Of a stretch of DNA of 64,000 nt, positions 64-23,493 are shown in pieces; the stretch's first letter is position 1, and each line of letters opens with the position of its first letter. A program made the translations under genes and the position numbers. The notes under the pieces were generated by a model. It saw nothing but the letters and a program-made list of their open reading frames with translations. It was not told the DNA's origin and did no database searches. Source of the DNA: Pedobacter schmidteae (GTDB taxonomy: Bacteria > Bacteroidota > Bacteroidia > Sphingobacteriales > Sphingobacteriaceae); the NCBI RefSeq assembly GCF_900564155.1, contig NZ_LS999839.1, forward strand, positions 1,423,097 through 1,487,096, given 5' to 3'.

Positions 64-2463
64 TTATAAAATGTCTTTGCTAAAGAAATAGCGAACCTTC
101 ACGGAAAACGAACGACTGGGTCTCTGTAAGCTGTAATTGTCATACAGCACTTTATCGGCGATGTTAAAGCATTCCAGCGACAGATTGTATTTGCCTCCGG
201 CTATAGTATAAACTATATTGGCATTGTGCGATACCTGGTGTGGAATTTCCAGTTTTGAAGTTTGGCTTCCCTGGCTTGGCCAACGCAAGTAGAATTTGCC
301 AACAAATAACATATTATAACCGATTGTCAGGGAATTATTCCCTTTACCAATATGATCAATTACAACCGAGGTATTTGCGTTTCCAAAAAGATAAGGCATA
401 TTCGGTATCCTGTCTCCATATGTGGTGCTGATTTCGGTCTTCCCAGGTTCATATAAGGAATTGTTCCTCAAATTCTGATAGGTAATATTGAAGCCGGCAT
501 TGAGCCACTTTTTATAAGAATAATTTATTTCTCCTTCTATTCCATTGTTTTTGACATCCCTTACATTGTCGGCTTTTTGGGCCTGTTTTCCGTCGAAACT
601 AACAGGTTGAAGTACCCATCGGATGAAGTCGGCCGCACCCCGGTATAAATAAGTAGCATCAATGCTGAGCCGATGATTATTGTTGATGTTAAAATTGAAA
701 TTACCGCCGATGTTGATGTTATTACTGCTTTCGGGTAAAAGATTCTGGTTAGGCGACAGAAGATCGATATCGCCAAATAGTTCATTATTTTCAGGTAATC
801 TCCTCGCTTTTTCATAGGAAGCTTTTAACTGAAGGTTGGGAAGTATATAGTAGGTTGTGGCAAGGCCATATCCAAGTTCAGAAATATTTCCTTTGCCGTT
901 GGTATAAATTCCATCTTGCAACTTGCTGTTGGAACTTTGCTGGAAGTAATTTTTTACAAAGACGGTGGTACTCCACTTCCGGTTATAATCAAAACGATAT
1001 CCCAAACCTGTAATGTGTTTTGTCGTTTTTGCGGGCTGCTGGTCGGCCAGGTTCCCAGGATCTAATGCATTAAACCCTTTTCTGTTAAATGTGGTGGTGA
1101 TATGATTGAAATTAAATGAATGATGTTCATTAATCAGATAAGCTATATTTCCTGAGAATACGCCATTGTTGTTTTTGTAGCGGTAATCTCGTCTGGTGCC
1201 CGATTCGCCTCCTTTTGCTGAAGGATTATTCCTGTCTTTGTAAACAAAGTCTCCCAGCCAGTTATACTGACGAAACATAGTATCAATAGAGCGTTCTTCA
1301 CCTAAATTGTACCTTCCTGTTATCTGTACATCCAGACCTTTGATAAAAAAATTCTTTTTAATGTACTTAAGTGTAGGCTGAACAATATTCCCCCTTCTTA
1401 AACGGCCACCATATACGTCATACATTCGGTTGCCTGTTTGAATATCCGCTTTGTTTTGCCCTAACGTAATACCCAATAGTAGCAGATCTGCATATTTTTT
1501 ACCCATTACGCCTATATTGAGTATTGCTGTTTCGTTATGGTAGTTATCATGAAACCTCCTTACCCGCATAGGGGTGTAAACCCCAGTCTCAAAATCTGCG
1601 ACATCGACGTCCACCCAGTAATTGTTATCGGAATAGTTTTGAAAGGCGTTCAGTTGAACAGTAAAACCGGATTTTGCGGTATAACCTGTATTAATTGTAG
1701 TTTTATGCGTATTAAATGAACCGTAAGAATAAGACGCATCAAGATAGGTACGAGGCGTGTTTTTGGTTACAATATTTACCGCTCCGCCCAGGGCATCGCC
1801 ACCAAGCCACACAGGTACTACTCCCTTATACACTTCTATTCGATCTGCAAAATTGATGGGAATATTGTTTAATTGAAATGATGAGCCAAAATTGTCCATC
1901 GGTAATCCATCAATGAAAAATTTAACCTGATTACCTGTAAAACCATTTAAAGAAATGCTCATGTCAGATCCCAATCCACCGGTTTCTTTCACCCTTATGC
2001 CAGAAACCCTATCCAGGGCCTGACCGATATCCAATGAAGTATTATGAAGTTTTTTGGCATCAATTGCTGTAACATTGTAAGCTTGTCTGTTCACCTCCTG
2101 GGTTGTGGTTCTGCCATTTATGTTTACAGACTCCAATTGCTGAACGCTGGATAGGAGGGAGAAATGAATGTCCGTGATGGTTCCAGCTTTAGTGTAAACA
2201 GTCTTCTGCTGTGGCTTCATTCCAATTGCTGTGACGGCGATTGTGAATTTACCACTTGAAAGATGCTCAAACCTAAAATGCCCATTTTCATCTGCTGCTT
2301 TGGAGATGTTGGCACCAATGATCTTTATCATTGCACCTGGAATAGGTTTGTCAGACTCATCTTTAACTTTTCCGGCGATTGTTGCGCTTCCGGACTGTGC
2401 ATAAACACAAAATAAATTCAGGGCACAAAAGATCCCCGTCAGCAAAATTTTCTTAATTTGCAT
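64..2463 (-). CDS. TonB-dependent outer-membrane receptor with N-terminal carboxypeptidase-like domain
   Basis: This 799-residue protein is an outer-membrane ligand-gated channel powered by TonB. It has a signal peptide (about residues 1-22, ending CVYAQ), a carboxypeptidase-regulatory-like beta-sandwich (about 27-110, with IAGKVKDESDKPIPGAMIKI), a plug domain (about 120-235, including LGGDALGGAVNIVTKN) and a beta-barrel ending in an aromatic strand (VKVRYFF). At about 800 residues it is shorter than SusC proteins and has no SusD partner, so it looks like a siderophore or metal-chelate receptor rather than a glycan importer. The upstream gene on the same strand encodes a DUF4198 protein, a family often linked to metal uptake, which supports a metal role; the ligand is unknown. 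The intervening leader contains three hairpins. No promoter box was recognised. Confidence 0.9.
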   Translation of the reverse strand: MQIKKILLTGIFCALNLFCVYAQSGSATIAGKVKDESDKPIPGAMIKIIGANISKAADENGHFRFEHLSSGKFTIAVTAIGMKPQQKTVYTKAGTITDIHFSLLSSVQQLESVNINGRTTTQEVNRQAYNVTAIDAKKLHNTSLDIGQALDRVSGIRVKETGGLGSDMSISLNGFTGNQVKFFIDGLPMDNFGSSFQLNNIPINFADRIEVYKGVVPVWLGGDALGGAVNIVTKNTPRTYLDASYSYGSFNTHKTTINTGYTAKSGFTVQLNAFQNYSDNNYWVDVDVADFETGVYTPMRVRRFHDNYHNETAILNIGVMGKKYADLLLLGITLGQNKADIQTGNRMYDVYGGRLRRGNIVQPTLKYIKKNFFIKGLDVQITGRYNLGEERSIDTMFRQYNWLGDFVYKDRNNPSAKGGESGTRRDYRYKNNNGVFSGNIAYLINEHHSFNFNHITTTFNRKGFNALDPGNLADQQPAKTTKHITGLGYRFDYNRKWSTTVFVKNYFQQSSNSKLQDGIYTNGKGNISELGYGLATTYYILPNLQLKASYEKARRLPENNELFGDIDLLSPNQNLLPESSNNINIGGNFNFNINNNHRLSIDATYLYRGAADFIRWVLQPVSFDGKQAQKADNVRDVKNNGIEGEINYSYKKWLNAGFNITYQNLRNNSLYEPGKTEISTTYGDRIPNMPYLFGNANTSVVIDHIGKGNNSLTIGYNMLFVGKFYLRWPSQGSQTSKLEIPHQVSHNANIVYTIAGGKYNLSLECFNIADKVLYDNYSLQRPSRSFSVKVRYFFSKDIL

Positions 2464-2489
2464 GTACTTTTAATTGACGTTAGAAGTTT

Positions 2490-2561
2490 CCTCTTTTCAG
2501 AGGTATTTGCCGTACAGTTGCTGCTGTACGGCTTTTTTGGTTAAAGAGTTGCTGCTCTTTA
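2490..2561 (-). promoter_or_regulatory. three-hairpin leader between the DUF4198 and TonB-receptor genes
   Basis: Read on the minus strand toward the receptor gene, this spacer holds three perfect stem-loops: a 7-bp stem at 2542-2561, a 9-bp stem at 2509-2532 (GCCGTACAG paired with CTGTACGGC) and a 5-bp stem at 2490-2503. The first two have the same six-base loop, CAGCAA on the minus strand. On the plus strand the 9-bp stem is followed by six T (2533-2538), like an intrinsic terminator, but no gene reads that way here. It may be a processing or attenuation element that sets the expression ratio of the two genes. Confidence 0.45.
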
Positions 2562-2600
2562 TCAAATTGTGCCTGTATTACACACATTCTAACCAAAGTA

Positions 2601-2614
2601 TGTGTGCAAACAGG
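2601..2614. promoter_or_regulatory. weak operator-like palindrome, possibly fortuitous
   Basis: The minus strand reads CCTGTTTGCACACA, matching 11 of 14 bases of the TGTGTTCGCACACA element found at 16160. It lies just past the stop codon of the DUF4198 gene, a poor place for an operator of that gene. It is listed only because it resembles the better sites near the LacI-controlled operons. Confidence 0.15.
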
Positions 2615-2621
2615 GCTTTAT

Positions 2622-3332
2622 TTATTTAGTTACTTCAAAGCTTGATGTTGCACCTTGCCAAGCGGTAGTGTAGGTTTTACCATTATGTGTACCTTCCGTT
2701 TTTTCACGTGCGGATACTTCAATAACATATCTTCCAGGCCATATCGGTTTAAAAGTAATCAGTCCATTTTCGTCAGTAGTGATCTCTTTGCTCCATCCTT
2801 CGGGAGAGAAAACGGAAATTGCTGTTTTGGCTAGAGGCTTGCCATTGGCTACGGCTTTAATCTGCAGAGATGTGTTAATTTTGTAGATTTTTGACTCCGT
2901 TGTGTGCACCTTAAGGGCTGTAGGTATTGCATCATAATTAATAGCTGCTGATTTCCCGACAGTAACAATCGCTGTCGATAAAAATTCGTATTTTGTCGTT
3001 CCGCCCAATTCTTTTGCTTCATGGCTAACGGTTAATATATATTGCCCGGCTTTTTCAGGAGTAAAAGTTGCTGAATAAAAATTGTCTCCAGGGATGGTGG
3101 TCAGTTTAATTTTCTCTTTTCCGGGCGCGGAAAGCCATAATGTGAACTCTTTAACGTCCGAGTACCATTTTGAAGTCTCTTCGCGTTCGTTGGTAGCGTA
3201 CTCGCCGTAATATACTTTTATTTGTTGGGCCTGGCCCGTTTTGCCATTGGATTCAGTTTCGATCCACAACGCGTGAGCAAATAGTTGAGTTGTGCCTAAT
3301 GTAAACAATAATGCAAGTAGTAGTGATTTCAT
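2622..3332 (-). CDS. DUF4198 family periplasmic protein
   Basis: This 236-residue protein has a signal peptide (MKSLLLALLFTLGTTQLFAHA). The mature protein starts HALWIETES, close to the H-x-(L/F)-W-x opening typical of DUF4198 proteins, which resemble the periplasmic NikM/CbiN-like parts of nickel and cobalt uptake systems. Two beta-sandwich regions can be seen: about 20-125, and about 150-235 with TTDENGLITFKPIWPGRYVI, a transthyretin- or CarboxypepD-like pattern. The N-terminal His could bind metal. It is followed on the same strand by a TonB-dependent receptor after a 158-base spacer, so the two probably form an uptake pair. The family assignment is fairly secure; the metal is inferred. 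Confidence 0.8.
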   Translation of the reverse strand: MKSLLLALLFTLGTTQLFAHALWIETESNGKTGQAQQIKVYYGEYATNEREETSKWYSDVKEFTLWLSAPGKEKIKLTTIPGDNFYSATFTPEKAGQYILTVSHEAKELGGTTKYEFLSTAIVTVGKSAAINYDAIPTALKVHTTESKIYKINTSLQIKAVANGKPLAKTAISVFSPEGWSKEITTDENGLITFKPIWPGRYVIEVSAREKTEGTHNGKTYTTAWQGATSSFEVTK

Positions 3333-3478: not shown

Positions 3479-4768
3479 TTACAATGTTTTATTTGATGCT
3501 TTCTGCCCCTTTAAACTGTAATACAAGGTGAACAGGTAACAAGGGATAAGTATCAGATATGCATATTGATTGTTGGTATGCCTGGCCACTGCACCATAAA
3601 CCAAGGGCATAATGGCACCACCAGCTACGCCCATAATTAAAATAGCTGATCCTTTGTTTAGTATTTGGCCACTTAGCCCTTTTAATGCTTGTGGCCATAT
3701 TGCGGGCCACAGTAATGCATTGGCCAGTCCAAGCAAGGCTATAAAATAAATGGATATTTCACCAGGAATAAAAATGGCGAACAACAGAATTATTAATCCA
3801 AGCCAGGAGGAATAGGTGAATGCTTTTTCCTGTGTAATATACCTTGGGATGGCATAAGCACCAAACAGGTACCCCAGCATAGTGCATGCTAATGTATATG
3901 AAGTTAGATTTTTTGCTATATCTAAAGGCACGCCATGATAGATGCCGTAATTGCTAATCGTATCACCGGCTACTACCTCAAGCCCGACTGTACAGAAAGT
4001 TGCGATAAAACCCAATGCAAAGTTTTTACGCGATATAGGAGCGCTTTTCACATGTTGATGGATTTCTTCTGCACCGTCATTTGAAGTGGCTTCAATTTCA
4101 GGTAGATGTGCAAACCTGATCACATAGGCGATTACCAGTAAAATAATTGTAAGCGCGATGTAAGGCATAATTACAGCATGTGCCAGTGTGTCAAGTCGAA
4201 TGTTGCGCTTGATATCATCCATCTGTTGAAGCTCAGCAATAAGTCCGTCAGAATTTTTCAAAATGATTGCTCCCAGAACAATTGGAGCCATTACTCCTGC
4301 AAACTTATTACATATGCCCATAATGCTGATGCGTTGTGCTGCTTTCTCAGGAGGACCTAACAAGGTGATATAAGGGTTAACCGTGGTTTGTAATAGTGTT
4401 GTCCCGGTACCAACAATAAACAACCCGATTAAGAATAAAGGATAGTACCGCATCATTGCAGCTGGGATGAATAATGCGCAACCAATTGCCATAATAACCA
4501 GTCCTACACTCATCCCTTTTACCATGCCAGTATACTGAAGCAGCTTACTGGAAGGGATGGCCATAACGGTGTATGAGATGTAGAAGGCGAAGGTGACCAG
4601 GTAAGCCTGCCATTCTTCCAGTTCGCAGGCTATTCTCAGGTAAGGGATTAAGGTGCCGTTTACCCAGGTAATAAACCCAAAAATGAAAAAAAAGGCGCCA
4701 ATGGTGGCGATTTGCATAGTTATGGCATTCTTGGCTGCAGGTTGTATGGCTACGGTTTCATTGGACAT
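3479..4768 (-). CDS. FucP/GlcP-type sugar:H+ symporter (MFS)
   Basis: This 429-residue inner-membrane protein has about 12 hydrophobic segments. It opens with FFIFGFITWVNGTLIPYL and contains GTGTTLLQTTVNPYITLLGP, both characteristic of the FucP branch of the major facilitator superfamily, which carries fucose, glucose, galactose or related sugars with a proton. It is the last gene of the minus-strand operon that begins at 9649. Its start codon overlaps the end of the isomerase gene by 11 bases, so translation is probably coupled. The other operon genes suggest the sugar is released from the glycan handled by the nearby SusCD system. The substrate cannot be read from sequence; several members of this branch prefer sugars other than fucose. 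Confidence 0.88.
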   Translation of the reverse strand: MSNETVAIQPAAKNAITMQIATIGAFFFIFGFITWVNGTLIPYLRIACELEEWQAYLVTFAFYISYTVMAIPSSKLLQYTGMVKGMSVGLVIMAIGCALFIPAAMMRYYPLFLIGLFIVGTGTTLLQTTVNPYITLLGPPEKAAQRISIMGICNKFAGVMAPIVLGAIILKNSDGLIAELQQMDDIKRNIRLDTLAHAVIMPYIALTIILLVIAYVIRFAHLPEIEATSNDGAEEIHQHVKSAPISRKNFALGFIATFCTVGLEVVAGDTISNYGIYHGVPLDIAKNLTSYTLACTMLGYLFGAYAIPRYITQEKAFTYSSWLGLIILLFAIFIPGEISIYFIALLGLANALLWPAIWPQALKGLSGQILNKGSAILIMGVAGGAIMPLVYGAVARHTNNQYAYLILIPCYLFTLYYSLKGQKASNKTL

Positions 4769-5576
4769 AATATCTGTTTTTTAATAGTTCTTTCATATAT
4801 TCATTTATTTCCCATTGATGCGTTTCATTCGATTTGCCATCGGGACTCCATTGCATATAAGGAAAAGGGCCAAACTCAGATGTAAAAGTAAAATAGTCGG
4901 CTTTTTCTGCAATTCGCATGGCCACCACTTTGTCCCAATGTTTTAGGTGTTGTTGCAGGGCCTCTTTCCAAACGATATTACGCGGATCGTTTACTTGTGG
5001 ACTTTGAGTGAAACCAATGCGCGAATGGATATGGCGGGTTCTGGATAAAGCAAGCTCAAGGGCATCATTCTGGTCTTCGAGGTAACTTTCTGCGACTGAA
5101 AACCAATGCGAAATATCAAGGGTTAACAATAGTTCAGGTAGTTCCTTTAAGAAAGCTTGTGTGTAATGGGCTGCGAAGCTAAATTTACCACGATGGGTTT
5201 CATGTAGAATGGATATTCCTGTGGCATTGCTGATTTCCTGAGCTGCTGACAGTAAGGCAATGTTTTGACGAAAACTGAAATGATCTTTTCCTGTATGAGA
5301 GGTAATAAACAAAGGTTTTGCAGCAGATAGAGTAAGCAATCTTTCAGTCATTTCTTTTTTGTGCTGAGGGAAGTTAGGTGTGATCGTGTCCCAGTGTACA
5401 CCAATCCATTGCAAACCGAAATCATGTATTGCAGAAATCATGTTGGCTTGTGATACTGCGTTATGAGGTAGACTGAACTCCACACCGTCATAACCTGATT
5501 TTTTAACCCTGGTCAAAAAATCAGTCCATTTCAGGTGTTCGCTACCCCAGTAGGTGCAAAAGAATAAGATTTTCAC
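4758..5576 (-). CDS. sugar phosphate isomerase/epimerase-like TIM-barrel protein
   Basis: This 272-residue cytoplasmic protein belongs to the xylose-isomerase-like / AP-endonuclease-2 superfamily of metal-dependent TIM barrels. Visible landmarks are SGYDGVEFSLP near the start, ILHETHRGKFSF carrying a probable metal-ligand Glu, LLTLDISHWFS with an Asp-x-x-His pair, and a late FTSEFGPFPY strand with another Glu. These fit the Glu-Asp-His-Glu metal site of the fold. The family isomerises or epimerises keto and aldo sugars, but also includes inosose dehydratases and 3-keto-sugar enzymes. The gene overlaps the upstream dioxygenase gene by four bases (ATGA-type coupling) and the downstream transporter by 11. 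The reaction is not known; the context says carbohydrate catabolism. Confidence 0.8.
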   Translation of the reverse strand: MKILFFCTYWGSEHLKWTDFLTRVKKSGYDGVEFSLPHNAVSQANMISAIHDFGLQWIGVHWDTITPNFPQHKKEMTERLLTLSAAKPLFITSHTGKDHFSFRQNIALLSAAQEISNATGISILHETHRGKFSFAAHYTQAFLKELPELLLTLDISHWFSVAESYLEDQNDALELALSRTRHIHSRIGFTQSPQVNDPRNIVWKEALQQHLKHWDKVVAMRIAEKADYFTFTSEFGPFPYMQWSPDGKSNETHQWEINEYMKELLKNRYYVQ

Positions 5577-6481
5577 ACTTTTACTGCCAGTTCTTTTGTC
5601 GGATCCATCAATAAAGGGAAGTATTGTCCGCTTATTTTTTCTCCTTTTGGAATTGCCGGAGCACCTGGCATAAGCTCATTGTCAGTGTCTGAAATGGTTC
5701 CGTCAGCAAACATATTGAGTACAAATGCTCTTCTTGACCTTTCCGATCTGTTTTCGTAAGAACCATGTACCAGCAGGGGGTGATGAAAAGTACCATAGCC
5801 CTTTCTTAGTTCCATTGGGATAGGTTGAAATGCAGCCTTTTGTTCAGCGGTTAAAAACTCCATCAATCCCTCCATTTCGCCAGCAAGTTCCGGTTTTTGG
5901 AGCAGGCCCCATTGATGACTTTTAGGTACATAGTACATGCAGCCATTTTCAGTGTTAGCGTCGTCCAAAGCTACCCAGCAGGTAAGATGCTGTAATGGAA
6001 TCGTGCGTGTCCAGTAAGAATAATCCTGATGCCAGGCAACCACTCCGCCGTGTTTAGCTGGTTTGCAAAAAAGTTGGTCATGCCAGAATCGTACTGCTTT
6101 ATTCCCTAGAAGTTGACTGGCAGCCATTACAAATGCAGGATTCCAAAGGATGTCATGAAAGCCAGGAGTAATCCGCCATGCACCTAATGCATGAAATAAA
6201 ACCGAATTAGGGTCCGTAGAAGCATTAGAAAAAAATTGATGGAATAGGGTGTGGTCTGGGAGGTTCGGGTCAGAAATGCGGACTAAATCTTCATTGAGTT
6301 GATCTACCTGCCATTCTTCCAGAAATTTAATGCCGCTTAAGTAGCCGTTTTCTTTAAAAAAACTAACCTGTGCATCATTAAGCTGGTATTGTTCCCATTC
6401 TTCTTTGTTAGTTGGCCATTTGAAAAAATCAGAGACCAGGTGATGGTATTCGGAAAGGTCTTTAAGTTCGTTGGTATTCAT
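5573..6481 (-). CDS. phytanoyl-CoA dioxygenase (PhyH) family Fe(II)/2-oxoglutarate oxygenase
   Basis: This 302-residue protein has no signal peptide. The iron-binding facial triad is visible: H151 and D153 in AWHQDYSYW, and the distal H239 in LLVHGSYENRS. The following Arg-rich stretch (RSERSRR) probably supplies the 2-oxoglutarate-binding Arg. An intact triad implies an active oxygenase that hydroxylates or oxidatively demethylates a small molecule while decarboxylating 2-oxoglutarate. Lying between the DUF5107 gene (27-base gap) and the isomerase (4-base overlap), it probably acts on a sugar or on a substituent such as an O-methyl group released from the glycan. That substrate is inference; related PhyH enzymes act on very varied compounds. 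Confidence 0.83.
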   Translation of the reverse strand: MNTNELKDLSEYHHLVSDFFKWPTNKEEWEQYQLNDAQVSFFKENGYLSGIKFLEEWQVDQLNEDLVRISDPNLPDHTLFHQFFSNASTDPNSVLFHALGAWRITPGFHDILWNPAFVMAASQLLGNKAVRFWHDQLFCKPAKHGGVVAWHQDYSYWTRTIPLQHLTCWVALDDANTENGCMYYVPKSHQWGLLQKPELAGEMEGLMEFLTAEQKAAFQPIPMELRKGYGTFHHPLLVHGSYENRSERSRRAFVLNMFADGTISDTDNELMPGAPAIPKGEKISGQYFPLLMDPTKELAVKV

Positions 6482-6508
6482 TCTGCTATTTTTTAATCCA
6501 ATAATCTG

Positions 6509-9500
6509 TTATTTTATGGTTGCTAAATGTATTTGCTTATTAAATAACCCTTTGCTGTATAGTTTTTTTATAAAGAAAAAAGACCGGTCTTCGAATGGAA
6601 TTTCATATGGTAAAACTTCCTTAACCAATAATTTTTGTTTAGAAAGCCTGTTAAGCTCCTGTTGATTATTATTTAAGAATGCTATGCTCCATTTCAGCGG
6701 TAAGGCCTCCGGATCCTCCTGGGCCCAGGCCTTCAGTATCCGTTCTATTCCTTGCTGGTCATTTGATTCCTGCATCAAAAAAATACTGATGAAATCCATC
6801 GATCCATAAGGTGTAAAATCACCAGATGCTCTAAAATCGGAAATCTTTTGAATCAGCTGTTTCCTTTTTACTTTATCTGCCATTTGCAGACAAATCAGTT
6901 CCATAAAGTCCTCCAGGCGTTCGTCAACAAGATGCGGTTTTCCAATGCCCATGTTTTCTGGCCATGTTTTGGCCATATGGATATGGTAGATCGCTTTTTT
7001 CGGATTTCTCATATCTATCGCATTTAACGCGCAACGTAATTGGGTTTCACGCCAGCTATTTCTGCCTTCCGAAGCACCTTCATTTGGTAAAACCGACATA
7101 TTTGTCATTAGGGAAATGCCTTGTTCAAATTTTTGGGTATGCATAAAACATCTGGCTAGTTTTAAACCCAGGTAATAATTGTGAGGGTAAAGTTTGTAGC
7201 CCTTGCTCGTAATGGAAAGAGCAGCGGTCCAATCGTCATGTTTTGCATAATATTTAGATAAGCTTAAGATTGTCCGCCAGTCATTTGGAGCAAGATGATA
7301 AGCCTGCTTCAAATCTTCCAAAGTACCTGGCTCACCCATTTTTTGTCTTAAATCTGCTCTTACAATATAGAAAGGATAAAAATCTGGCGCTACATTACAG
7401 CTATTTAACAGATTCAGCGCATTCTCATTCTTAAGGTTCTGGATGTAGGCCAGTGCCAGAAAATACCTGAATTTCCAGGAAGGATGTAAGTCGATCGCCC
7501 AGCGTAACAGCATGATGTCTTCTTCCCGGTGTGGAAAAACAAAATCAGCACTTAAAGCTGCCGCGCTGTTTAAGGTCGGATCAACCTTTTCTTTAAAGCC
7601 TATTTTTTGAAATAAATAAGCTTTCCAAACTCCAACCATAGGGTATTCGGGGGCAGCTTCAATGAGTAGTAGGGCATCTTTGTATAAATTTAAACTGGCA
7701 TAAAATGAGGCCAGTTCCATATAGGTTTCATAGGGAAGTTCGCTATCGGTTAGCTGCGCAATAGGCAGACCTTTTGCTTTATTCAATTCAAATCTCGCCA
7801 TATAGTTAATGGGATCTGTAATCAATAGCTGCTGTATTAAGACCATAGCCTTATCATGTTGCCCCTTTAGATTGTTGATAATGATGCTTAAATATACAGA
7901 ATGAAGATTAATAGATCCAGATTGTCCCGCCTTTCTTACATAGCTGCTTGCTTTTTCAAGCTGGCCTTCCTGCAGAAATAATTTGGCTAGTTCGATGTAA
8001 GCCGCAACTCTGTAGGTTATCGACTGGCTGGCGATAGAAAAGCCATCTTTTGCATCTGCAGTATTCTGTAGTCGATGATTTACCAATCCATAAAAATAAT
8101 TTGCTTCAGGATTATAGGTGTCGACAGCTAAAGATGTGTTTAATAATCTTAGGGCATCCGTGTATTTCATTTGTTTAAAATAAAGTCCGGCCAGCCCATT
8201 AAGAGCTTCTATAAAAAAAGGATCTTTTTCCAAACAGTTTTTGTAGTTGCTTATTGCACGGTCAAAAAAACGTTGCCTTTCCCATTCCCTGGCTTGTATG
8301 GAGGAAGCCTGAACAGAATTAAAATTATATCCTTCATTAATCTTTACCGGTCTTTTTAATAAAGTATGTTGCTCCGGGCCGTTGTAGATGATAGTGTCAT
8401 CTAAGATCAATGTCAATGTCGTGGCGCTGACAGGGGCAGGTAGATCAATGACGAAGGTTTGCATGGTATTCATTAAGATATGTTGACTTACCAATTTCCT
8501 CTGTTGATTTAAAATGATCAGCTGATGATTCAATGGTTCGTTGCTGAACAACTGAAGCTGCGTTTTGCCTTCTTCCCTGGTGATGTGGAACGAGAGCTTA
8601 GGGCATCCATAAGTTAGTCCACCCAAATCTTTAACAGGAAACCAGTGCTCTTCCCAGGTATCGGAAGTGTGGGGTAAAAACGAGGCATGTTTAAAGGGAG
8701 TTTTGGAACTGGAGGCAATACTTTGATTAAACAGTCTACCGCTTTGAACTTCTGTATATTGACCGTCTTTATCAGTTAGTAAGTCTTCCCAGATCATTCC
8801 ATATCTGGATAAGCCCCATATCCATATTTTTTTTCCTGGCTTTTCATCATATGGTGCGAAATGCCCCATCCCAAAGTTGTCAGCATGCCAGTAACAACCC
8901 CAAAAATCCGAATAAGAACCTATGACGTGGTAGGACTTATACTCGCCGTGATCGTTCTGATCATAAAAAGATATTTTTCTGTTAGCCTCATCTTCCGGCC
9001 AGCTTAGCGCATTTCCATCATGTCCCAGTCTTTGCTGTCCCGGATAAATATATTCAAGATTCCCGGATGCTTTAATACCGACGTTGTTCCATTGATAGTA
9101 GGACTGTGGAAGGCATGTGTTGTTGTGCCACCAACTTTTGGTTTTAAAATATGCAGTATCCTTGGGTAGATTAATTTCCACACGCCATTGGGTGCGTGAT
9201 GGCCAGTCTGTAGCACCTATAAAGCAGCTAACACTACCGTCCTCATTTTCGATCATTTTGTAGTCAACATCTGCTGAACATGATGGACTGTGCCCGATAA
9301 TACCCATATTGATTTCCATGCCACCGGAAGTCCATGGTCCGCGCATAGCCACATCTCTGAATTTTGCGGTATGATTAAAATAAATAAACTCCTTTCCTGT
9401 AGCTTTTTCTATGGCTCCCCATATTTTACCACCTACTGCCGGATTGATCCAGAGTTTGATATAAGGGTTTTCCATAACAACCATTTCCCAGGCCTGATCT

Positions 9501-9649
9501 TTGCCGTTAGTAGTGTAACCATCGAATCTGTTATATGGATATAGTCGTCCGAACTCAGGTATAGGACTTGGATCTGAATAAGGGTATGTTTTGAGTACGA
9601 CGAGTTCCTTCCTGATCTTAGCTTCTTCTATGATTTTAGTGTTTTCCAT
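6509..9649 (-). CDS. DUF5107 domain and TPR-repeat protein
   Basis: The ATG at 9649 (MENTKIIEEAKIRK, 1046 residues) is preferred over one 36 bases upstream, whose extra residues (MPQCTLLHQHYQ) look non-coding. Residues about 15-330 form a DUF5107 domain, with WINPAVGGKIWGAI and GPWTSGGMEINMGI, likely a beta-sandwich of the galactose-mutarotase type that binds carbohydrate. Residues about 430-1000 form a long series of tetratricopeptide-like helical repeats (for example GLAGLYFKQMKYTDALRLL). No signal peptide is seen, so it is probably cytoplasmic. It is the first gene of the operon ending with the FucP-like transporter. The biochemical role of the family is not established. The gene is preceded by a -7-like box and an operator-like palindrome. 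Confidence 0.85.
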   Translation of the reverse strand: MENTKIIEEAKIRKELVVLKTYPYSDPSPIPEFGRLYPYNRFDGYTTNGKDQAWEMVVMENPYIKLWINPAVGGKIWGAIEKATGKEFIYFNHTAKFRDVAMRGPWTSGGMEINMGIIGHSPSCSADVDYKMIENEDGSVSCFIGATDWPSRTQWRVEINLPKDTAYFKTKSWWHNNTCLPQSYYQWNNVGIKASGNLEYIYPGQQRLGHDGNALSWPEDEANRKISFYDQNDHGEYKSYHVIGSYSDFWGCYWHADNFGMGHFAPYDEKPGKKIWIWGLSRYGMIWEDLLTDKDGQYTEVQSGRLFNQSIASSSKTPFKHASFLPHTSDTWEEHWFPVKDLGGLTYGCPKLSFHITREEGKTQLQLFSNEPLNHQLIILNQQRKLVSQHILMNTMQTFVIDLPAPVSATTLTLILDDTIIYNGPEQHTLLKRPVKINEGYNFNSVQASSIQAREWERQRFFDRAISNYKNCLEKDPFFIEALNGLAGLYFKQMKYTDALRLLNTSLAVDTYNPEANYFYGLVNHRLQNTADAKDGFSIASQSITYRVAAYIELAKLFLQEGQLEKASSYVRKAGQSGSINLHSVYLSIIINNLKGQHDKAMVLIQQLLITDPINYMARFELNKAKGLPIAQLTDSELPYETYMELASFYASLNLYKDALLLIEAAPEYPMVGVWKAYLFQKIGFKEKVDPTLNSAAALSADFVFPHREEDIMLLRWAIDLHPSWKFRYFLALAYIQNLKNENALNLLNSCNVAPDFYPFYIVRADLRQKMGEPGTLEDLKQAYHLAPNDWRTILSLSKYYAKHDDWTAALSITSKGYKLYPHNYYLGLKLARCFMHTQKFEQGISLMTNMSVLPNEGASEGRNSWRETQLRCALNAIDMRNPKKAIYHIHMAKTWPENMGIGKPHLVDERLEDFMELICLQMADKVKRKQLIQKISDFRASGDFTPYGSMDFISIFLMQESNDQQGIERILKAWAQEDPEALPLKWSIAFLNNNQQELNRLSKQKLLVKEVLPYEIPFEDRSFFFIKKLYSKGLFNKQIHLATIK

Positions 9650-9703
9650 TTGATAATGTTGATGGAGCAGGGTGCATTGCGGCACCTGTAAAATTTATAT
9701 GAT

Positions 9704-9751: not shown

Positions 9752-9765
9752 TGTGCGCGCACACA
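9752..9765. promoter_or_regulatory. LacI-type operator candidate
   Basis: TGTGCGCGCACACA matches 12 of 14 bases of the element at 16160. It is almost palindromic, as expected for a homodimeric LacI-family regulator, and lies between the regulator gene and the divergent catabolic operon. Its position upstream of the likely promoter allows either repression by looping or activation. Confidence 0.5.
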
Positions 9766-9937
9766 GTTTGTTTTTAATGCTTATATGCTAATAAATGTGT
9801 TTATTTTGTAATACGTATACATTTCGTGTTAGGCGATGAGAATCTTCGTGAATTTTAGGTATTTTAGACAACCGGAAAGTGATGCCTGGTTGTGTAGTTT
9901 GCATAGGGTTTATGCAAATGTTGTAAACTAAATTAGA

Positions 9938-10023: not shown

Positions 10024-11100
10024 ATGAAGAACATCCGTATTAAGGATATTGCCGCCAAGGCTAAAGTTTCTGCTGGTACTGTTGACCGGGTATTGCATGA
10101 TCGCGGAAATGTTTCAGAAAAGGTAAAGGAGCGGATTCTCCAGATCATAGAGGAGATGAACTACGAGCCTAATCTGATGGCAAGGGCATTGGGTACAAAA
10201 AAAGAGTATCATTTTGCGGCCCTGATTGGAGATCCCCGTTACGATGCATATTGGCTTGATCCAAAATCGGGTATTCAGAAAGCTGCAAAGGAGGCCAGGC
10301 AGTACGGTGTCAAAGTGACTCTGTATATGTTTAATCCATACGATCCTGGTTCCTTTGTTAAAAAAGCTGAAGAGGTTACCCGGACTAATCCTGATGGAAT
10401 TTTGCTTGCACCGATGTTCTATCGCGAAGTACTTCCTTTTTTCGAAGCCTGGAAAACGCAGGAGATCCCTTTTGTACTATTTAATACCCAGATTGCAGAG
10501 GCTGATCCCTTAAGTTATATTGGACAGGACTCTTATCAAAGTGGCCAGGTTGCCGGAAAGCTAATTCACTACGGGCAATCTCAAGGCTCGTCTGTTTTGA
10601 TTGCGCATATCGATGAAGAAATCAGCAATTCTGCCCACCTTACCAAAAAGGAACAGGGATTAAGAAATTACTTTATTCAAAATAAGCTTGATCACCAGTA
10701 CGAGATCATTAAAGCAGAGTTAAATCTCAGGAACTATGCCTTGTTTGTGGAGCAACTGGATGCGATCTTTGAAAGCAACCCTCAGCTTCAGTTTTGTTTT
10801 GTAACAACTTCTAAGGCATTTGAAATCGCCAAATATTTTGAGCAGAAATTTATAAATCATATCAAAATAATTGGATACGATCTTATTCCTCAGAATTTAC
10901 ATTACCTGAATAAAGGTTCAATTAGCTTTCTGATTAATCAAAATCCATTGGGTCAGGGATATTGGGGTATTAACCAACTCCTGGACCACCTGGTACTTAA
11001 AAAGGAGATTTCTGCTATAAAGTTCCTGCCTTTGGATATCGTAACCAAAGAAAATCTGAATTACTATATAGATGATTCTCTGCTCTACAATAGATTTTAA
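10024..11100 (+). CDS. LacI-family transcriptional regulator
   Basis: This 358-residue regulator has an N-terminal LacI helix-turn-helix (about residues 4-50: IRIKDIAAKAKVSAGTVDRV), a hinge containing LMARALGTKK, and a periplasmic-binding-protein-like effector domain (about 60-340) with DGILLAPM and IGYDLIPQNLHYL. The Asp in GTVDRVL replaces the more usual Ser of family recognition helices; this form is common in Bacteroidota homologues. The effector is probably a sugar from the locus A glycan. The likely targets are three nearby operons, because similar 14-base palindromes lie at 9752, 15933, 16160 and 16216. Its stop codon is only two bases from the stop of the convergent beta-helix gene, leaving no room for a separate terminator. 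Confidence 0.92.
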   Translation: MKNIRIKDIAAKAKVSAGTVDRVLHDRGNVSEKVKERILQIIEEMNYEPNLMARALGTKKEYHFAALIGDPRYDAYWLDPKSGIQKAAKEARQYGVKVTLYMFNPYDPGSFVKKAEEVTRTNPDGILLAPMFYREVLPFFEAWKTQEIPFVLFNTQIAEADPLSYIGQDSYQSGQVAGKLIHYGQSQGSSVLIAHIDEEISNSAHLTKKEQGLRNYFIQNKLDHQYEIIKAELNLRNYALFVEQLDAIFESNPQLQFCFVTTSKAFEIAKYFEQKFINHIKIIGYDLIPQNLHYLNKGSISFLINQNPLGQGYWGINQLLDHLVLKKEISAIKFLPLDIVTKENLNYYIDDSLLYNRF

Positions 11101-11102
11101 GT

Positions 11103-13274
11103 TTATTTCTCTACCAGCATTAACTTCCTGTAGCCAATCTTTTCAAAAGGAATATTTCTGAAGCCAGGAATTTTTTCGAATACAATGGCGTCTTTCTTTA
11201 ATTTAAAATTCTCGGCTTCGTAGTTTTCAAAACCAGGATCCTGTTCAGTTTCGTAATTAATTCCGGTGAATGATAGTAAGGCTTCCTTACCTTCAACTTT
11301 TTTAGGAATTTTTACAAATACATTGTTGCTGAAGACATTTCGTTTGGGCATGGCCGGGTCATCGTCAAAATATTTAGCAAGTTGTGGATATTGGATAGCA
11401 TATGGTGGATTCTTATAGTTTACGGCCTCAAGCCTTTTTTGATAGGTGCCACCTTTAACAAGCATTGCTTTTGCCCAGGATTTTAGTCTGTCATCAATGT
11501 GAGCCGCGAATTTAGTCTCTATAAAAATATTGTTGTAGTACCTGTTGTCCTGACCCCCGCCAATAAATCCCGCAACGGTACCCGCTTTGTAAAACACGTT
11601 GTCATATACTTCCATGTCGCAGGCGCCATCGTCATGGTAAACAGCCATGGTTTTATGATCTCCACCAATATGGTGAAAATAATTATACCTGGTCACATGT
11701 CCCCGCTCTGAAGGATTACGGCCATAATATAGCGCTCCCATATCATCTGATTCCATTACTAAATGGTGAAAGTTATTGTATTCAATGACATGATTATTAC
11801 CGTGCATAAATACACCTGTTGAGGGGGCATTATAAATGTCGCAGTTTGAAATGTGATTTCCTACCCCTGAAATCCATATTCCTGGCCGATAGAAAAATTC
11901 AATACGGTTGAAGTCGTGTATGTTGCAGTTCTTAACATAATTATTGCCAGGTTCCAGGGTTAGTCTATTGCCGCCGCTAATAAAAAAGCCGCCGGTGCCA
12001 GTATTGTAAACCTCACAATTGATGATCCCATTGTTTTTGCCCGCTTCTCTGTTAAAGATGGTATTGTCGTAAACATAAGGTACTATGCTGCCAATAACAC
12101 GAGATTCAGGCTTGATGGCATATACACTCAGGCTGTCAGACTCGGCCTGTAATCCTTTGCCCATAAATATGGCTAACATACCCAGGTTTGTAAACTTACA
12201 GCCATCTATTACAACGCCCTCAGTTCTCTCCATAGTGATGCCAATCCCCCTGCTGCAGGTGAACTGGAGGTTCTTTATGGTTACATTACGTACGTCGTCT
12301 ATGGCAAATAGTGGAGTTTCAAGTTCCGATACTTCCAGTTTTTTCAAGTTTTCCGGCGGTAGGAAATATAGATTTTTTTGCTCAGTATCAACATAATATT
12401 CCCCAGGCTGATCAATCTCTTCCGGTAAATTGTAAGCGTACCAGGCTCTCCAGGGTTTCCCGGCGCCAAAGCCATATGTGTGTGGTTTTAGCGTAGTGAT
12501 CGTTTTGGTAAGCGTGTCGATACCCTTTAGCGGAACGGCATCGTCTGCGTAGCCCCACATAAAAAAGCCAGCTATCCAGGCTTTGTTTGGCTCCTTCCAT
12601 CTTGAAGGACGTTGAATAGCATCGTATGTGAATACAGCACCACGATTTGTTGAATCACCCCATCTTGGGATTGACCCCGTATCTAAAACCTTATGAATAG
12701 GTATTGATCCTTTATTTGGCCAACGTGCAATTTTTCCAGGCTCATCATTGGTGAAGATTTCGAGCCAGGAGGGGGCAAAGGGCCTTGTGAAACCTGTCAT
12801 TCTAATCTTGCCGACATTACTTACCCCTGCGTCTTTTAGTGCCACCTGCCTGATTTTATTCCTTACTTCAGGGAGAAAGCGACTTAAATAAACAGGGTCT
12901 GAAACAGGTTTGATTAGACTGTCCTTAATGATCTTTCCTCCATGTATAACCGGCTGTTCATTTTCGTATGCTTTAATCAGCAAAGGCACTAAAGAGCTCC
13001 ATGTCTTATGCTGAACAATTTCAAGTGTTGCTGACATAGGGTAAGCTCCCCCTCGTAAGATGATCTCGATTGGCTTTTTAGTTCTCTTACTTGCTTTATG
13101 AGCAATCTCTAGCGCTTTAGCAATGCTGGATGTTGGTTTTTTAAGCGAGCCTTTATTCTTAGGCAATCCTTGCGGAGATACATAAATCTGAATTGGTTTT
13201 TGTGCATAGCCCCATGTTGTTGTTAGGACTAAGAATAGCCCCAAAAATGCTTTTTTTATAAAATTATCAGTCAT
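11103..13274 (-). CDS. secreted right-handed parallel beta-helix protein, possible glycoside hydrolase or lyase
   Basis: The ATG at 13274 (MTDNFIKKAFLGLFLVL, 723 residues) gives a clean signal peptide ending WGYAQ; an in-frame ATG 54 bases upstream would overlap the preceding gene. After the signal comes IYVSPQGLPKNKGSLKKP, a common opening of extracellular beta-helix carbohydrate enzymes. Residues about 325-640 carry repeated rungs rich in Asn, Gly and His, such as NCDIYNAPSTGVFMHGNN and YNYFHHIGGDH. Families with this architecture include GH141 (fucosidase or xylanase) and several polysaccharide lyases; sequence alone does not decide. It follows the GH123-like gene after 13 bases and is probably co-transcribed with it. 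It could be the missing lyase that makes the substrate of the GH88 enzyme at 32557, but that is speculation. Confidence 0.75.
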   Translation of the reverse strand: MTDNFIKKAFLGLFLVLTTTWGYAQKPIQIYVSPQGLPKNKGSLKKPTSSIAKALEIAHKASKRTKKPIEIILRGGAYPMSATLEIVQHKTWSSLVPLLIKAYENEQPVIHGGKIIKDSLIKPVSDPVYLSRFLPEVRNKIRQVALKDAGVSNVGKIRMTGFTRPFAPSWLEIFTNDEPGKIARWPNKGSIPIHKVLDTGSIPRWGDSTNRGAVFTYDAIQRPSRWKEPNKAWIAGFFMWGYADDAVPLKGIDTLTKTITTLKPHTYGFGAGKPWRAWYAYNLPEEIDQPGEYYVDTEQKNLYFLPPENLKKLEVSELETPLFAIDDVRNVTIKNLQFTCSRGIGITMERTEGVVIDGCKFTNLGMLAIFMGKGLQAESDSLSVYAIKPESRVIGSIVPYVYDNTIFNREAGKNNGIINCEVYNTGTGGFFISGGNRLTLEPGNNYVKNCNIHDFNRIEFFYRPGIWISGVGNHISNCDIYNAPSTGVFMHGNNHVIEYNNFHHLVMESDDMGALYYGRNPSERGHVTRYNYFHHIGGDHKTMAVYHDDGACDMEVYDNVFYKAGTVAGFIGGGQDNRYYNNIFIETKFAAHIDDRLKSWAKAMLVKGGTYQKRLEAVNYKNPPYAIQYPQLAKYFDDDPAMPKRNVFSNNVFVKIPKKVEGKEALLSFTGINYETEQDPGFENYEAENFKLKKDAIVFEKIPGFRNIPFEKIGYRKLMLVEK

Positions 13275-13287
13275 TTTCAAACTAAAT

Positions 13288-15990
13288 TTATTTTCGTTTA
13301 ATAACAATAAGAAATCCTTTCTCTCCATCTAGTGTAATTTCTTTGCTGACGTCGATGTTCTTTTTCTCCTGGAAGTCAATTATTTCTGGGATTTCTGCCG
13401 TTATCTGGTCTGCTGAAAAACCGAGTGCTTTCCAATCAATATTTAGTTTGCAGGTTTGCGCCTCCGATTTCCAGTTGGCAACGGCAATAATAACTTCGTC
13501 TTTGCCCTTGAAAATGGTGGCTTCAGTGTTCCTGTTGTTCGTCTTAACAGGTATTTCATCATTCCAAAACCCAATCATCTGCTTCTTCTCAATATGGTAG
13601 TCATCCCAAAATTTCCAGATGTGTTCAGGTGTTTTGGCTTTAAACCAGCCGAGTCTGTTCGTTATGCCAAATACCATTCCGCGCCATGGGTTTCCGCCTT
13701 TGTTGAGCATTTGAGAGGAGAGACCAAATGGCACGCCACTTACCTCTATGAGCCAATAGTCTGAAGAGCGGTTGTAATCTCTGGCCTCGCCAACCCACAA
13801 GTGATCAATGTAAGGGAGCATATCCATATATAAGTTTAGGGAAGAGGCCCATTTTGCATATTTGTTAAAATGGTTCCAGGTGTGCATATCTATTTTGGAT
13901 CCAGGTCTTTCTCTCTCCAGTATCTTACGGGTTCTTTGCATGGTCTCACGATCAAGTGCCAGGTCGTCCATATAGATCCCGTCAATATTTATTTCTTTGC
14001 ACATCCACTCCAGTCCCCCCAGAAAAAAGTTGTTCAAACGAGAGTCTGGTCTGGTTAATACCGCCAGGTCCTGACGCCCCTTGTACTTGCCTGAAGTAAA
14101 AGTGGCGACCCACCCCGGGATAAAATCCTTTTTAAGATTTTGTCCCAGCCATGGGTGTACACCATTGGGGTTAACAAGTGTTCTGGTGGCCATCCCCGGC
14201 CCGGGGAAAATAATTTCATCACCCAGGGCGCGCATAGCCCATAATTCGGGAGCATTTACGCTAATTTCTCTTGTTGTATAATAGATTTTGGTTTTAAACC
14301 CTTTGGTATGAGAGCTGTCAATAAACGCTTTCAGGTCAGGTACATTGTCATTGGCAAAAGGATAATCCAGGAAAGGATAGATGTCTTTTTTATGGTGAAT
14401 ATTGATGATGTTGGCGCCGTGTTGCTGTGCAAGCTTGATGGTGTTGCTGGTGGTGTCAATGTCGGAATGATAGTAACGGTCATTGAACTGAATGTCTTTG
14501 TTGATGAGCTTAAAAGGGGTAACTAAAAATTCGGCATCAAACTGATAAGTCTCATCTTTTTTTAGGATGCGGTTGCCGGAATAGGCTTTAATCATTACTG
14601 TTTTATGATCTTGGTAAATGTCTACACCGCCTTTATTGCTGTTTCCCCATGATTCTGGTTCATGAAGCGGGCCAAAAGGATAATAAAGATTGACCAACTG
14701 CCTTTGATAGTTTTTTCCTTTTAACTTGAGTTTCAGTCCGCCGTTTACTGCACCCATCCACACTTCATCCTGATGTTTTTCGATCACATCCCATTTCCAT
14801 TTCCATTCTTTCGGACTTAATCCGCCTTCTCTATCCAAGCCCATCATGTAAATCGCTTTTTCCGGACGCATCGGTATTTCCAGACGAATGTCATCGATGG
14901 GTATATCACGGGTTGTACTCACCGTGGCGCTATATCCAATAAATCCATCATAATCTGCACGGCCTTTTATGAGAACGGTGATTTCCCCGTTTGTCAGCTT
15001 CGTTTCCCAGTGTGTTGATCCGGGAAAATGATCTTCAAATTTTAACGTTCCGGACTTAAGGCTTAAGGCCTTGCCATTTTGAGCAATCACAAACTGAATA
15101 GGGGCGGCAATAATGGGCTCGCCTTTGGGTAAAATCAATTCATTATTTTTATCAAAGTAAGTCTGGATGTCTATCGGAAGGCCCTGATCGGATAGCTTTA
15201 TAGATCGGCCAAGTATATTGATGTTTTTTTGTGTCCGGTCTACCTGTTTAAATCCGTTGGTGAGTCCGCTGTCAAGTGCTACTTTAGTATTTAACCAGGC
15301 TAATCTTGATAATTTAGTTTCGTCGTTATAGCCGTGATTTTTTATAATGCTGCCAGACACATTCAATCGTACCTGTATGGTGGTGGTTTCCCGGCCTTCA
15401 GGAGTGATTTTAACGATGCCCTTATATTCACCTTTAAAATCTTCGGGAATCTGGATGCCAAACCATAAAGGCAATACATTTTTCGCTGTTAGCGCTAAAG
15501 TTTTAGAGAAAGGCTCACCCTTAAAGGAGGTGCCGCCCGTATTAAAGCATGTTACCTCTTGAATAGACTGTCCATTGGTATTGCGAAGTGGAGAAAAATG
15601 AACGTTAATATTTTTTAACGATTGTGTCGGAGCATATAACCCTACCTGGAATACATAGTATTCTCCCGGTTGAGCGAGTCCATTAAAATTAGTAAGCGCT
15701 TCGTTTGAGTAGTTTGTCCATTTTTCGGGCAGACTATCTAACAATCGAATAGGATTTTCACGACTCTCCGGAAAGGTGAAATATGGTTTGCCAGGAAATT
15801 TCTTCAGTAAGGAGCTGACTTGCTGTGTTGAGGCTGGTTTTGACATAATGGTTGGTCCCAGTCCAATATATCCTGTCAGTTTTGTTTCTCTAATGGCATC
15901 AACATCTATAGCGTGAAGAAGTTTGTCTTTGTTTTGTGCGGACACAAAAGATGTAATAAGCATAAAAGAAGAAAATAATAGTTTTTTCAT
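13288..15990 (-). CDS. GH123-like (DUF6067) secreted glycoside hydrolase
   Basis: This 900-residue protein has a signal peptide (ending SFVSAQ), an N-terminal beta-sandwich region (to about 480) and a TIM-barrel-like catalytic region. The barrel contains NINGIYMDD-type sequence, read as EINIDGIYMDDLALDRE near residues 664-680, with adjacent acidic residues suited to catalysis. The pattern resembles proteins with GH123-like N-terminal and DUF6067 domains; characterised GH123 enzymes are beta-N-acetylgalactosaminidases using substrate-assisted chemistry. The substrate here is uncertain because the homology seems distant. It is the first gene of a minus-strand pair with the beta-helix protein and is divergent from SusC, sharing an intergenic region with two operator-like palindromes. 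A further candidate lies inside its first 20 codons. Confidence 0.68.
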   Translation of the reverse strand: MKKLLFSSFMLITSFVSAQNKDKLLHAIDVDAIRETKLTGYIGLGPTIMSKPASTQQVSSLLKKFPGKPYFTFPESRENPIRLLDSLPEKWTNYSNEALTNFNGLAQPGEYYVFQVGLYAPTQSLKNINVHFSPLRNTNGQSIQEVTCFNTGGTSFKGEPFSKTLALTAKNVLPLWFGIQIPEDFKGEYKGIVKITPEGRETTTIQVRLNVSGSIIKNHGYNDETKLSRLAWLNTKVALDSGLTNGFKQVDRTQKNINILGRSIKLSDQGLPIDIQTYFDKNNELILPKGEPIIAAPIQFVIAQNGKALSLKSGTLKFEDHFPGSTHWETKLTNGEITVLIKGRADYDGFIGYSATVSTTRDIPIDDIRLEIPMRPEKAIYMMGLDREGGLSPKEWKWKWDVIEKHQDEVWMGAVNGGLKLKLKGKNYQRQLVNLYYPFGPLHEPESWGNSNKGGVDIYQDHKTVMIKAYSGNRILKKDETYQFDAEFLVTPFKLINKDIQFNDRYYHSDIDTTSNTIKLAQQHGANIINIHHKKDIYPFLDYPFANDNVPDLKAFIDSSHTKGFKTKIYYTTREISVNAPELWAMRALGDEIIFPGPGMATRTLVNPNGVHPWLGQNLKKDFIPGWVATFTSGKYKGRQDLAVLTRPDSRLNNFFLGGLEWMCKEINIDGIYMDDLALDRETMQRTRKILERERPGSKIDMHTWNHFNKYAKWASSLNLYMDMLPYIDHLWVGEARDYNRSSDYWLIEVSGVPFGLSSQMLNKGGNPWRGMVFGITNRLGWFKAKTPEHIWKFWDDYHIEKKQMIGFWNDEIPVKTNNRNTEATIFKGKDEVIIAVANWKSEAQTCKLNIDWKALGFSADQITAEIPEIIDFQEKKNIDVSKEITLDGEKGFLIVIKRK
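15933..15946. promoter_or_regulatory. operator-like palindrome inside the start of the GH123-like gene
   Basis: The minus strand reads TGTGTCCGCACAAA, matching 12 of 14 bases of the 16160 element. It lies 44-57 bases into the coding sequence, over the codons at the end of the signal peptide. An intragenic site could serve as an auxiliary operator, but coding constraint may explain the match. Confidence 0.3.
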
Positions 15991-16159: not shown

Positions 16160-16173
16160 TGTGTTCGCACACA
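16160..16173. promoter_or_regulatory. LacI-type operator candidate, best copy
   Basis: TGTGTTCGCACACA has 5-bp inverted arms (TGTGT and ACACA) around a four-base core, the shape of a LacI-family operator. It overlaps the expected -33 region of the first TATGTTTG box, so binding could block transcription of the SusC operon. Confidence 0.55.
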
Positions 16174-16185: not shown

Positions 16186-16242
16186 TATGTTTGTGTAAGC
16201 ATATGAGGGTAATTCTGTGTTCGCACACTTAATGTATGTTTG
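16186..16242 (+). promoter_or_regulatory. two candidate -7 boxes for the SusC operon
   Basis: TATGTTTG occurs twice on the coding strand, at 16186-16193 and 16235-16242, both exact TAnnTTTG matches. Each lies just downstream of an operator-like palindrome (gaps of 12 and 5 bases). A clean -33 TTTG is not seen for either box. The arrangement suggests one or two repressible promoters. Confidence 0.35.
16216..16229. promoter_or_regulatory. LacI-type operator candidate, second copy
   Basis: TGTGTTCGCACACT differs from the 16160 copy only at its last base. The 56-base start-to-start spacing (about five helical turns) would place two bound dimers on roughly the same face of the DNA, which favours cooperative binding or looping. 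Confidence 0.5.
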
Positions 16243-19510: not shown

Positions 19511-19525
19511 ATAAAAACTATAGTT

Positions 19526-21166: not shown

Positions 21167-21192
21167 TAATTTTCAATACACACAATCGTCGA

Positions 21193-21217
21193 CTGTGCAG
21201 GATAGATTCCTGCGCAG
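21193..21217 (+). terminator. hairpin between SusD and GH3, partial terminator or processing site
   Basis: A 10-bp stem with one G-T pair (CTGTGCAGGA against TCCTGCGCAG) and the five-base loop TAGAT is followed 7 bases later by a T-rich run (AATTTTT). It lies 27 bases after the SusD stop and 36 bases before the GH3 start, which fits attenuation inside an operon. Confidence 0.45.
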
Positions 21218-21252
21218 CGGCTTAATTTTTAACCAAATCTATTGCTAACTAA

Positions 21253-23475: not shown

Positions 23476-23493
23476 AATTAAATCTATAGAAAC

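Follow-up and report, generated by a model that had tools for sequence, protein, structure and literature searches.

What does an Fe(II)/2-oxoglutarate oxygenase do in an operon that looks like one for sugar breakdown, with a putative isomerase and a carrier but no kinase? The question is raised by four minus-strand genes of the soil bacterium Pedobacter schmidteae (contig NZ_LS999839.1, positions 1,423,097 to 1,487,096). We refer to this whole stretch of 64,000 nucleotides as the window; it belongs to a genome of 6.2 Mb on a single contig, and the nearest named loci are those of Pedobacter. The genes encode a DUF5107/tetratricopeptide repeat (TPR) protein, a PhyH-type oxygenase (PhyH), a xylose-isomerase-like TIM-barrel protein that we call ISO and a carrier of the major facilitator superfamily (MFS) (Table 1). 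A preliminary description, made from the sequence alone, had read them as a catabolic operon with an oxidative step on an unusual or modified sugar and gave demethylation of an O-methyl sugar as an example. Our comparison with related loci (numbered with L below) indicates that PhyH and ISO form a pair that recurs throughout the phylum Bacteroidota, and the operon would complete the breakdown of a modified monosaccharide for the adjacent polysaccharide-utilisation locus (PUL) under the control of a LacI-type regulator.

The operon itself is borne out. Its four genes lie where they had been placed, and their order and spacing are kept in related genomes, which, judged by this comparison, rules out a chance arrangement. 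The tight packing consists of two true overlaps, 4 nt (GTGA) between the PhyH and ISO reading frames and 11 nt between ISO and MFS, and of one near-contact, a gap of 27 nt from the DUF5107 stop to the PhyH start. The DUF5107/TPR protein, a relative of PDB 5cd6, is encoded by the first gene; relatives favour an ATG start at 9649, with a GTG at 9685 as the alternative. Its distribution is restricted to a PUL subtype that is marked by GH123_N, GH3 and a CBM9-like protein and occurs in Pedobacter, other Sphingobacteriaceae and Chitinophagaceae. By this distribution DUF5107 is a part of the PUL subtype and stands outside the widespread PhyH-ISO module.

The PhyH domain (PF05721) is recognised with 121.8 bits at a cut-off of 22. 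The iron triad H151-x-D153...H239, which had been described as an intact H-D-H motif, is invariant in 52 relatives, as is the 2-oxoglutarate-binding R250. The structure model (pLDDT 88) is a double-stranded beta-helix with Z-scores of 24-27 to SnoN, SnoK, MysH, GriE and the phytanoyl-CoA hydroxylase PAHX. A scan of genome contigs with the window's PhyH gave 547 stretches that encode relatives, and the 80 best of these were retained; the window's genome has six PhyH genes. The nearest solved relative, RESC14, belongs as a subunit to the RNA-editing complex of trypanosomes (E 3.7e-38, Z 35.8 over 288 residues). All three iron ligands are gone in its alignment with PhyH, hence RESC14 looks like an inactive relative of the enzyme family.

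For ISO, fold and metal site agree with the earlier assignment as a TIM-barrel isomerase or epimerase, while the reaction is less clear. The model is a confident TIM barrel (pLDDT 96) with Z-scores of ~20 to sugar epimerases (19-20 to UlaE, D-tagatose epimerase and others), and the E-D-H-E metal-site pattern of E126, D154, H182/H184 and E234, with ligands assigned by pattern, is invariant. Against AP_endonuc_2 ISO reaches 27.4 bits and misses the cut-off of 31.1; a closely related protein of L038 exceeds it at 35.4 bits. Fold scores are tied at Z 18.5-20.3 for tagatose/allulose epimerases, UlaE, IolE, DgpB/C, AtHYD and xylose isomerase. AsbF and YcjR are further fold neighbours, and profile comparison gives an AsbF match of 1.5e-4. 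Neither profile nor fold names the reaction, as the members of the superfamily all tie. The chances are even that ISO is a true isomerase or epimerase rather than a hydratase or lyase.

The carrier had been called FucP-like, which did not hold. It stays below the cut-off of the fucP equivalog (166.2 versus 280.4 bits) and exceeds that of gluP (258 versus 202.55 bits). The highest-scoring model is NagP, with 374 bits below a cut-off of 625; GluP and NagP are nearer to it than FucP. Domain searches found no kinase, aldolase or dehydrogenase in the operon or the adjoining PUL up to 37.5 kb, and no lyase or lactonase in the operon itself. The missing kinase is therefore confirmed for operon and PUL, but the argument drawn from it is weak, because related loci carry ROK-type or 2-keto-3-deoxygalactonate (KDGal) kinases and a kinase may sit elsewhere. 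Compared with classical carrier-isomerase-kinase-aldolase operons, the locus shares a carrier and a TIM-barrel isomerase-like protein under a LacI regulator, but it has an oxygenase and neither kinase nor aldolase.

Genomes were searched with ISO alone and the surroundings then compared, which gave 67 distinct loci. Open reading frames of related loci were called by a simple longest-frame rule that missed the PhyH of L039 (seen directly) and the alcohol dehydrogenase (ADH) of L183. PhyH is the immediate neighbour of ISO in 30 of the 67 loci and lies within three genes in 37, while ~0.2 and ~0.5 are expected by chance from the six PhyH genes in the window's genome. The pairing persists although the partners belong to different PhyH subfamilies (>50% or ~25% identical to the window's PhyH) and must have been exchanged four times or more on the ISO tree. 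Sugar carriers and GH20, GH38, GH92, GH120, GH127 or GH3 genes are repeatedly found next to the pair. Judged by this recurrence, ISO and PhyH are a functional pair, and a sugar-directed oxygenase-isomerase module is highly likely.

Seventeen of the 67 ISO loci hold a c-type cytochrome set of PSD1/PSCyt2 (DUF1553/DUF1549), DUF1501 and a PSCyt1/DUF2231 cytochrome instead, and none of the 67 has both PhyH and this set. The cytochrome-linked ISOs are one supported group on the ISO tree. A Tat- or Sec-like leader, scored by a crude rule, is present in 15 of these 17 compared with 0 of 37 PhyH-linked ISOs (p 1.6e-11, uncorrected for kinship). As PhyH and the cytochrome set never share an ISO locus, we infer that ISO partners an oxidising system, namely PhyH when it stays in the cytosol and cytochromes when it is exported. 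Whatever the chemistry, this alternation offers a handle on two large uncharacterised groups of genes, PhyH in PULs and the DUF1501/DUF1549/DUF1553 sets. The gene order of the cytochrome set is fixed (L105, L106, L112, L123, L131, L134, L137-L139, L150-L154, L164, L165 and L174).

The window's genome contains two further ISO-PhyH pairs in L021 (G000:C1:5126000-5145000), one of which is accompanied by PL8, GH92, SusCD and a NagB-like protein, while in the other the two genes are separated by AraC and an MFS gene. In the P. hiemivivus cassette (L026 8900-8911) ISO is cleanly deleted between PhyH and MFS, with the apparent last bases of ISO left at the deletion point. That genome keeps three ISO paralogues, and different loci may therefore draw on a common ISO activity.

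Plant pectin and the polysaccharides of algae and bacteria commonly contain methylated sugars, and the methyl ether has to come off before such a sugar can be used. The only characterised bacterial demethylation route for a monosaccharide that we found is a cytochrome P450 system. Three Zobellia species have an operon of P450 (387 aa, heme motif), ferredoxin (102 aa), reductase (418 aa), ADH (372 aa) and esterase (264 aa), followed by a PhyH ~68% identical to the window's. The Zobellia ADH matches PDB 8h2b at 1e-238, which we take to be the ADH of the 6-O-methyl-D-galactose operon and the enzyme of the knockout study considered here. The demethylation cluster for 6-O-methyl-D-galactose in Zobellia and Formosa is given as P450, ferredoxin, reductase, ADH and esterase (Reisky 2018, as cited in PMC10033563), and PMC10033563 reports the same neighbourhood from P450 to esterase; PhyH is not mentioned there. 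Growth on this sugar was abolished by a CYP knockout and showed a dramatic defect after ADH knockout (PMC10033563).

The ADH-esterase pair also adjoins window-type PhyH where there is no P450 (L049, L051, L071, L079). With ADH as the sole query, 26 loci were compared: PhyH was present within six genes in 14 (chance 0.4), the P450 set in four, and none had both. These ADH-PhyH loci are often syntenic and comprise perhaps six independent arrangements, hence binomial figures overstate the evidence. The esterase of the pair resembles feruloyl esterases. One of the 14 loci belongs to the window's genome (L022, G000:C1:5681209-5685560), where ADH and esterase of the 6-O-methyl-galactose type, together with an esterase-like gene, diverge from a PhyH paralogue. 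On the PhyH tree, the ISO-linked and ADH-linked members are intermixed, with no fewer than six forced changes; the trees are of a quick kind and the PhyH set has long branches. The simplest reading of these contexts would be that methyl ethers of sugars are cleaved by either of two oxygenases, P450 or PhyH. With the P450 cluster the window operon shares a PUL-linked oxidation, predicted here to depend on O2, and the two systems are connected by the window-type PhyH in the Zobellia operons and by the ADH-esterase pair next to PhyH. It differs in having no P450, ferredoxin, reductase or ADH-esterase pair and, by its gene content, a 2-oxoglutarate oxygenase with a TIM-barrel isomerase.

From gene content and context we infer a sugar as substrate, its demethylation, the order of steps, the ISO reaction and a part for the DUF5107 protein. 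Extracellular and periplasmic release of a modified monosaccharide would fall to SusCD, GH3, the GH123-like and the beta-helix proteins, and the GluP/NagP-like carrier would import it. PhyH would then oxidise the sugar with Fe, O2 and 2-oxoglutarate, most likely by hydroxylating the O-methyl carbon. The resulting hemiacetal would collapse to formaldehyde and the free sugar, a P450-independent O-demethylation, and the metal-dependent ISO would isomerise or epimerise the product for central metabolism. A precedent exists in the plant enzymes T6ODM and CODM, Fe/2-oxoglutarate enzymes that cleave methyl ethers to formaldehyde; they differ in subfamily and in their alkaloid substrates.

The O-methyl example of the preliminary description is the reading best supported by the related loci, through PhyH next to ADH-esterase (PMC10033563). 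This support is independent of that description and circumstantial, and O-demethylation by PhyH appears possible, somewhat short of an even chance. Several points weigh against it. The ADH had no formaldehyde activity with the tested thiols and preferred aromatic aldehydes (PMC10033563), which leaves its link to demethylation a genetic one. ISO and the ADH-esterase pair occur together in 0 of 126 loci, so a role of ADH-linked PhyH may not extend to ISO-linked PhyH, and most window-type PhyHs in the sample have neither nearby. In Zobellia PhyH adjoins a P450 that already demethylates 6-O-methyl-galactose and must therefore act otherwise or on another sugar. No gene for formaldehyde was found in the operon, and no ribulose monophosphate (RuMP) pathway isomerase over cut-off in the window's genome; RuMP formaldehyde fixation is over cut-off in three of ten genomes carrying PhyH or ISO, the window's not among them, a distribution that carries little information either way. 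Among close PhyH relatives no characterised substrate is known. That a widespread P450-independent module for sugar O-demethylation exists in Bacteroidota, in which PhyH works with either a new family of TIM-barrel isomerases or the ADH-esterase pair of porphyran use, is more tentative still.

PhyH or the PhyH-ISO pair is elsewhere found with GFO/IDH and a 3-keto-disaccharide hydrolase, with GH20, a NagB-like protein and MurQ, with GH38 and a ROK-type kinase, with GH92 or with a GH120-like protein. Such varied contexts speak for oxidative sugar chemistry at large and sustain a serious rival to O-demethylation, namely oxidation to a keto-sugar or sugar acid. PhyH would here take the place of a sugar dehydrogenase: it would hydroxylate a C-H of an ordinary sugar, at C1 or at a secondary carbinol, and so produce an aldonate or keto-sugar. 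On this compound ISO would act as an epimerase, hydratase or dehydratase, in the manner of 3-keto-glycoside, inositol or De Ley-Doudoroff routes. In L053, L034, L125, L149, L170, L171 and L173, PhyH or the pair has GFO/IDH/MocA dehydrogenases, a second AP_endonuc_2 enzyme or 3-keto-disaccharide hydrolases next to it. L103 combines ISO alone with 2-keto-3-deoxygalactonokinase (DGOK) and an aldolase of the 2-keto-3-deoxy-6-phosphogluconate (KDPG) type. The 17 cytochrome/DUF1501 loci and the fold neighbours IolE, AsbF, YcjR and AtHYD fit as well. Yet the operon has no dehydrogenase, lyase or lactonase, the Z-scores fail to separate these families, and the recurrent ADH-esterase pair is left unexplained. 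Known 3-keto-glycoside pathways (for example BT_2159 family, AtHYD, DgpB/C), built from a C3-oxidising GFO/IDH dehydrogenase, a xylose-isomerase-like lyase or hydratase and a DUF1080 hydrolase, likewise use an enzyme of the AP_endonuc_2 superfamily in an oxidative sugar route, and GFO/IDH and DUF1080-type genes occur in some PhyH or PhyH-ISO loci. In contrast, the window operon and adjacent PUL encode no GFO/IDH/MocA, LacABC or DUF1080 protein; fold scores place ISO about equally far from all enzymes of these pathways. We regard such a plain oxidation as possible, though less likely than O-demethylation.

It is improbable that PhyH acts on a non-sugar (an aglycone, phenolic ether, lipid or signal), with its place in a sugar operon reflecting the aglycone of a glycoside. 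In its favour stand the chemical diversity of the PhyH family, the preference of the linked ADH for aromatic aldehydes (PMC10033563) and the likeness of its esterase partner to feruloyl esterases. The tight pairing with a sugar-isomerase-like ISO whose metal site is complete and the sugar carriers within the same operons argue otherwise.

There is similarly only a slim chance of amino-sugar or ether-sugar catabolism, in which PhyH would take an N- or O-linked substituent off a hexosamine such as an N-acetylmuramate-like compound. In Chitinophaga-type loci (L038, L040, L042, L045, L082, L101) the pair is flanked by a NagB-like protein on one side and by a MurQ-type etherase on the other; the etherase is over cut-off in L038. 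A NagP-like carrier and mostly GH20 accompany them. Another ISO-PhyH pair of the window's genome has a NagB-like protein, NagP is the best model for the window's carrier, and a GH123-family protein is nearby. However, the NagP and NagB models score far under their cut-offs, and most pair loci hold mannosidases, xylosidases or other enzymes not directed at amino sugars. Most other pair loci have no genes like those of the GH20/NagB/MurQ loci, which is why the amino-sugar reading was not retained as the main explanation.

A conventional route with its kinase encoded elsewhere and PhyH as an accessory that widens the range is very unlikely: ROK-type kinases in L018, L019 and L147, DGOK in L103, one KDPG-type aldolase elsewhere in the window's genome and the P. 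hiemivivus operon without ISO beside three paralogues would fit, but such a route is compatible with O-demethylation and alone leaves the oxygenase unexplained.

We found no open literature on a PhyH-ISO module (PhyH with sugar catabolism, demethylation or PULs); DUF5107 appeared in one unrelated paper and DUF6067 not at all. The pair would add a further type to the oxidative routes of sugar catabolism that are linked to PULs. If O-demethylation is true, hundreds of soil, freshwater and marine Bacteroidota would have a soluble 2-oxoglutarate demethylase. This would account for many unannotated PhyH genes in polysaccharide loci and help to account for the puzzling ADH-esterase pair.

The divergent LacI gene holds the same position in L013, L014, L023-L026, L115 and L116. 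A LacI-type operator-like palindrome precedes the operon, and a palindrome near TGTGTGCGCACACA is kept upstream of DUF5107 in L013, L014, L025, L026, L115 and L116. The window has two more copies in the interval from the GH123-like gene to SusC, and L115 and L116 have additional ones ahead of GH123 and GH3. The SusC, SusD, GH3 and DUF2264 genes are probably controlled by the same type of box. A pattern search of the whole genome found no further LacI boxes outside the window beyond chance, hence the regulon looks local. From the box positions, the cassette and the adjacent GH123-like, beta-helix, GH3 and SusCD genes of the PUL are very probably one LacI regulon, and confidence in operon and regulon taken jointly is high. 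The intergenic region of LacI and DUF5107 contains another conserved palindromic element, which has no second copy in the genome.

Table 1. Features of the operon, its putative control sites and the adjoining locus (positions in the window).
Feature	Position	Strand	Evidence or remark
MFS carrier, GluP/NagP-like	3479-4768	-	MFS_1 3.5e-19; gluP model over cut-off
ISO, xylose-isomerase-like TIM-barrel protein, GTG start	4758-5576	-	fold model, metal-site pattern
PhyH-type Fe(II)/2-oxoglutarate oxygenase	5573-6481	-	PF05721 6.4e-35
DUF5107 + TPR protein, no evident signal peptide	6509-9685 (GTG) or 6509-9649 (ATG)	-	PF17128 7.1e-116, TPR_19
LacI-type operator-like palindrome TGTGCGCGCACACA (consensus TGTGTGCGCACACA)	9752-9765		upstream of operon
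Second conserved palindromic element AATGTATACGTATTACA	9807-9823	-	LacI/DUF5107 intergenic region
Divergent LacI-family regulator	10024-11100	+	PF00356 3e-16, PF13407 3e-38
Right-handed beta-helix protein, GH141-like very weakly	11103-13328	-	PF13229; PDB 9rx2 2e-10; BT_1002 1e-3
GH123_N (PF19543) family protein	13288-15990	-	1e-278
Second box copy TGTGTTCGCACACA	16160-16173		between GH123-like gene and SusC
Weaker box copy	16216-16229		between GH123-like gene and SusC
SusC, SusD, GH3, DUF2264 genes	16337-24753	+	GH3 relative bears box in L115, L116

The GH123_N gene is kept together with the cassette in Pedobacter and Chitinophagaceae. DUF2264 is followed by another SusCD set, accompanied by GH88-like and GH106 proteins. 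At 64-3332 the window encodes a DUF4198 protein and an MxcH-like TonB receptor, which probably serve the uptake of a metal or siderophore and look unrelated to the operon. Two tandem SusCD sets, each followed by a fasciclin-domain protein, are located at 42116-62901 together with DUF5007/DUF5008 proteins. Next to this tandem, a hybrid two-component regulator is encoded at 37522-41601.

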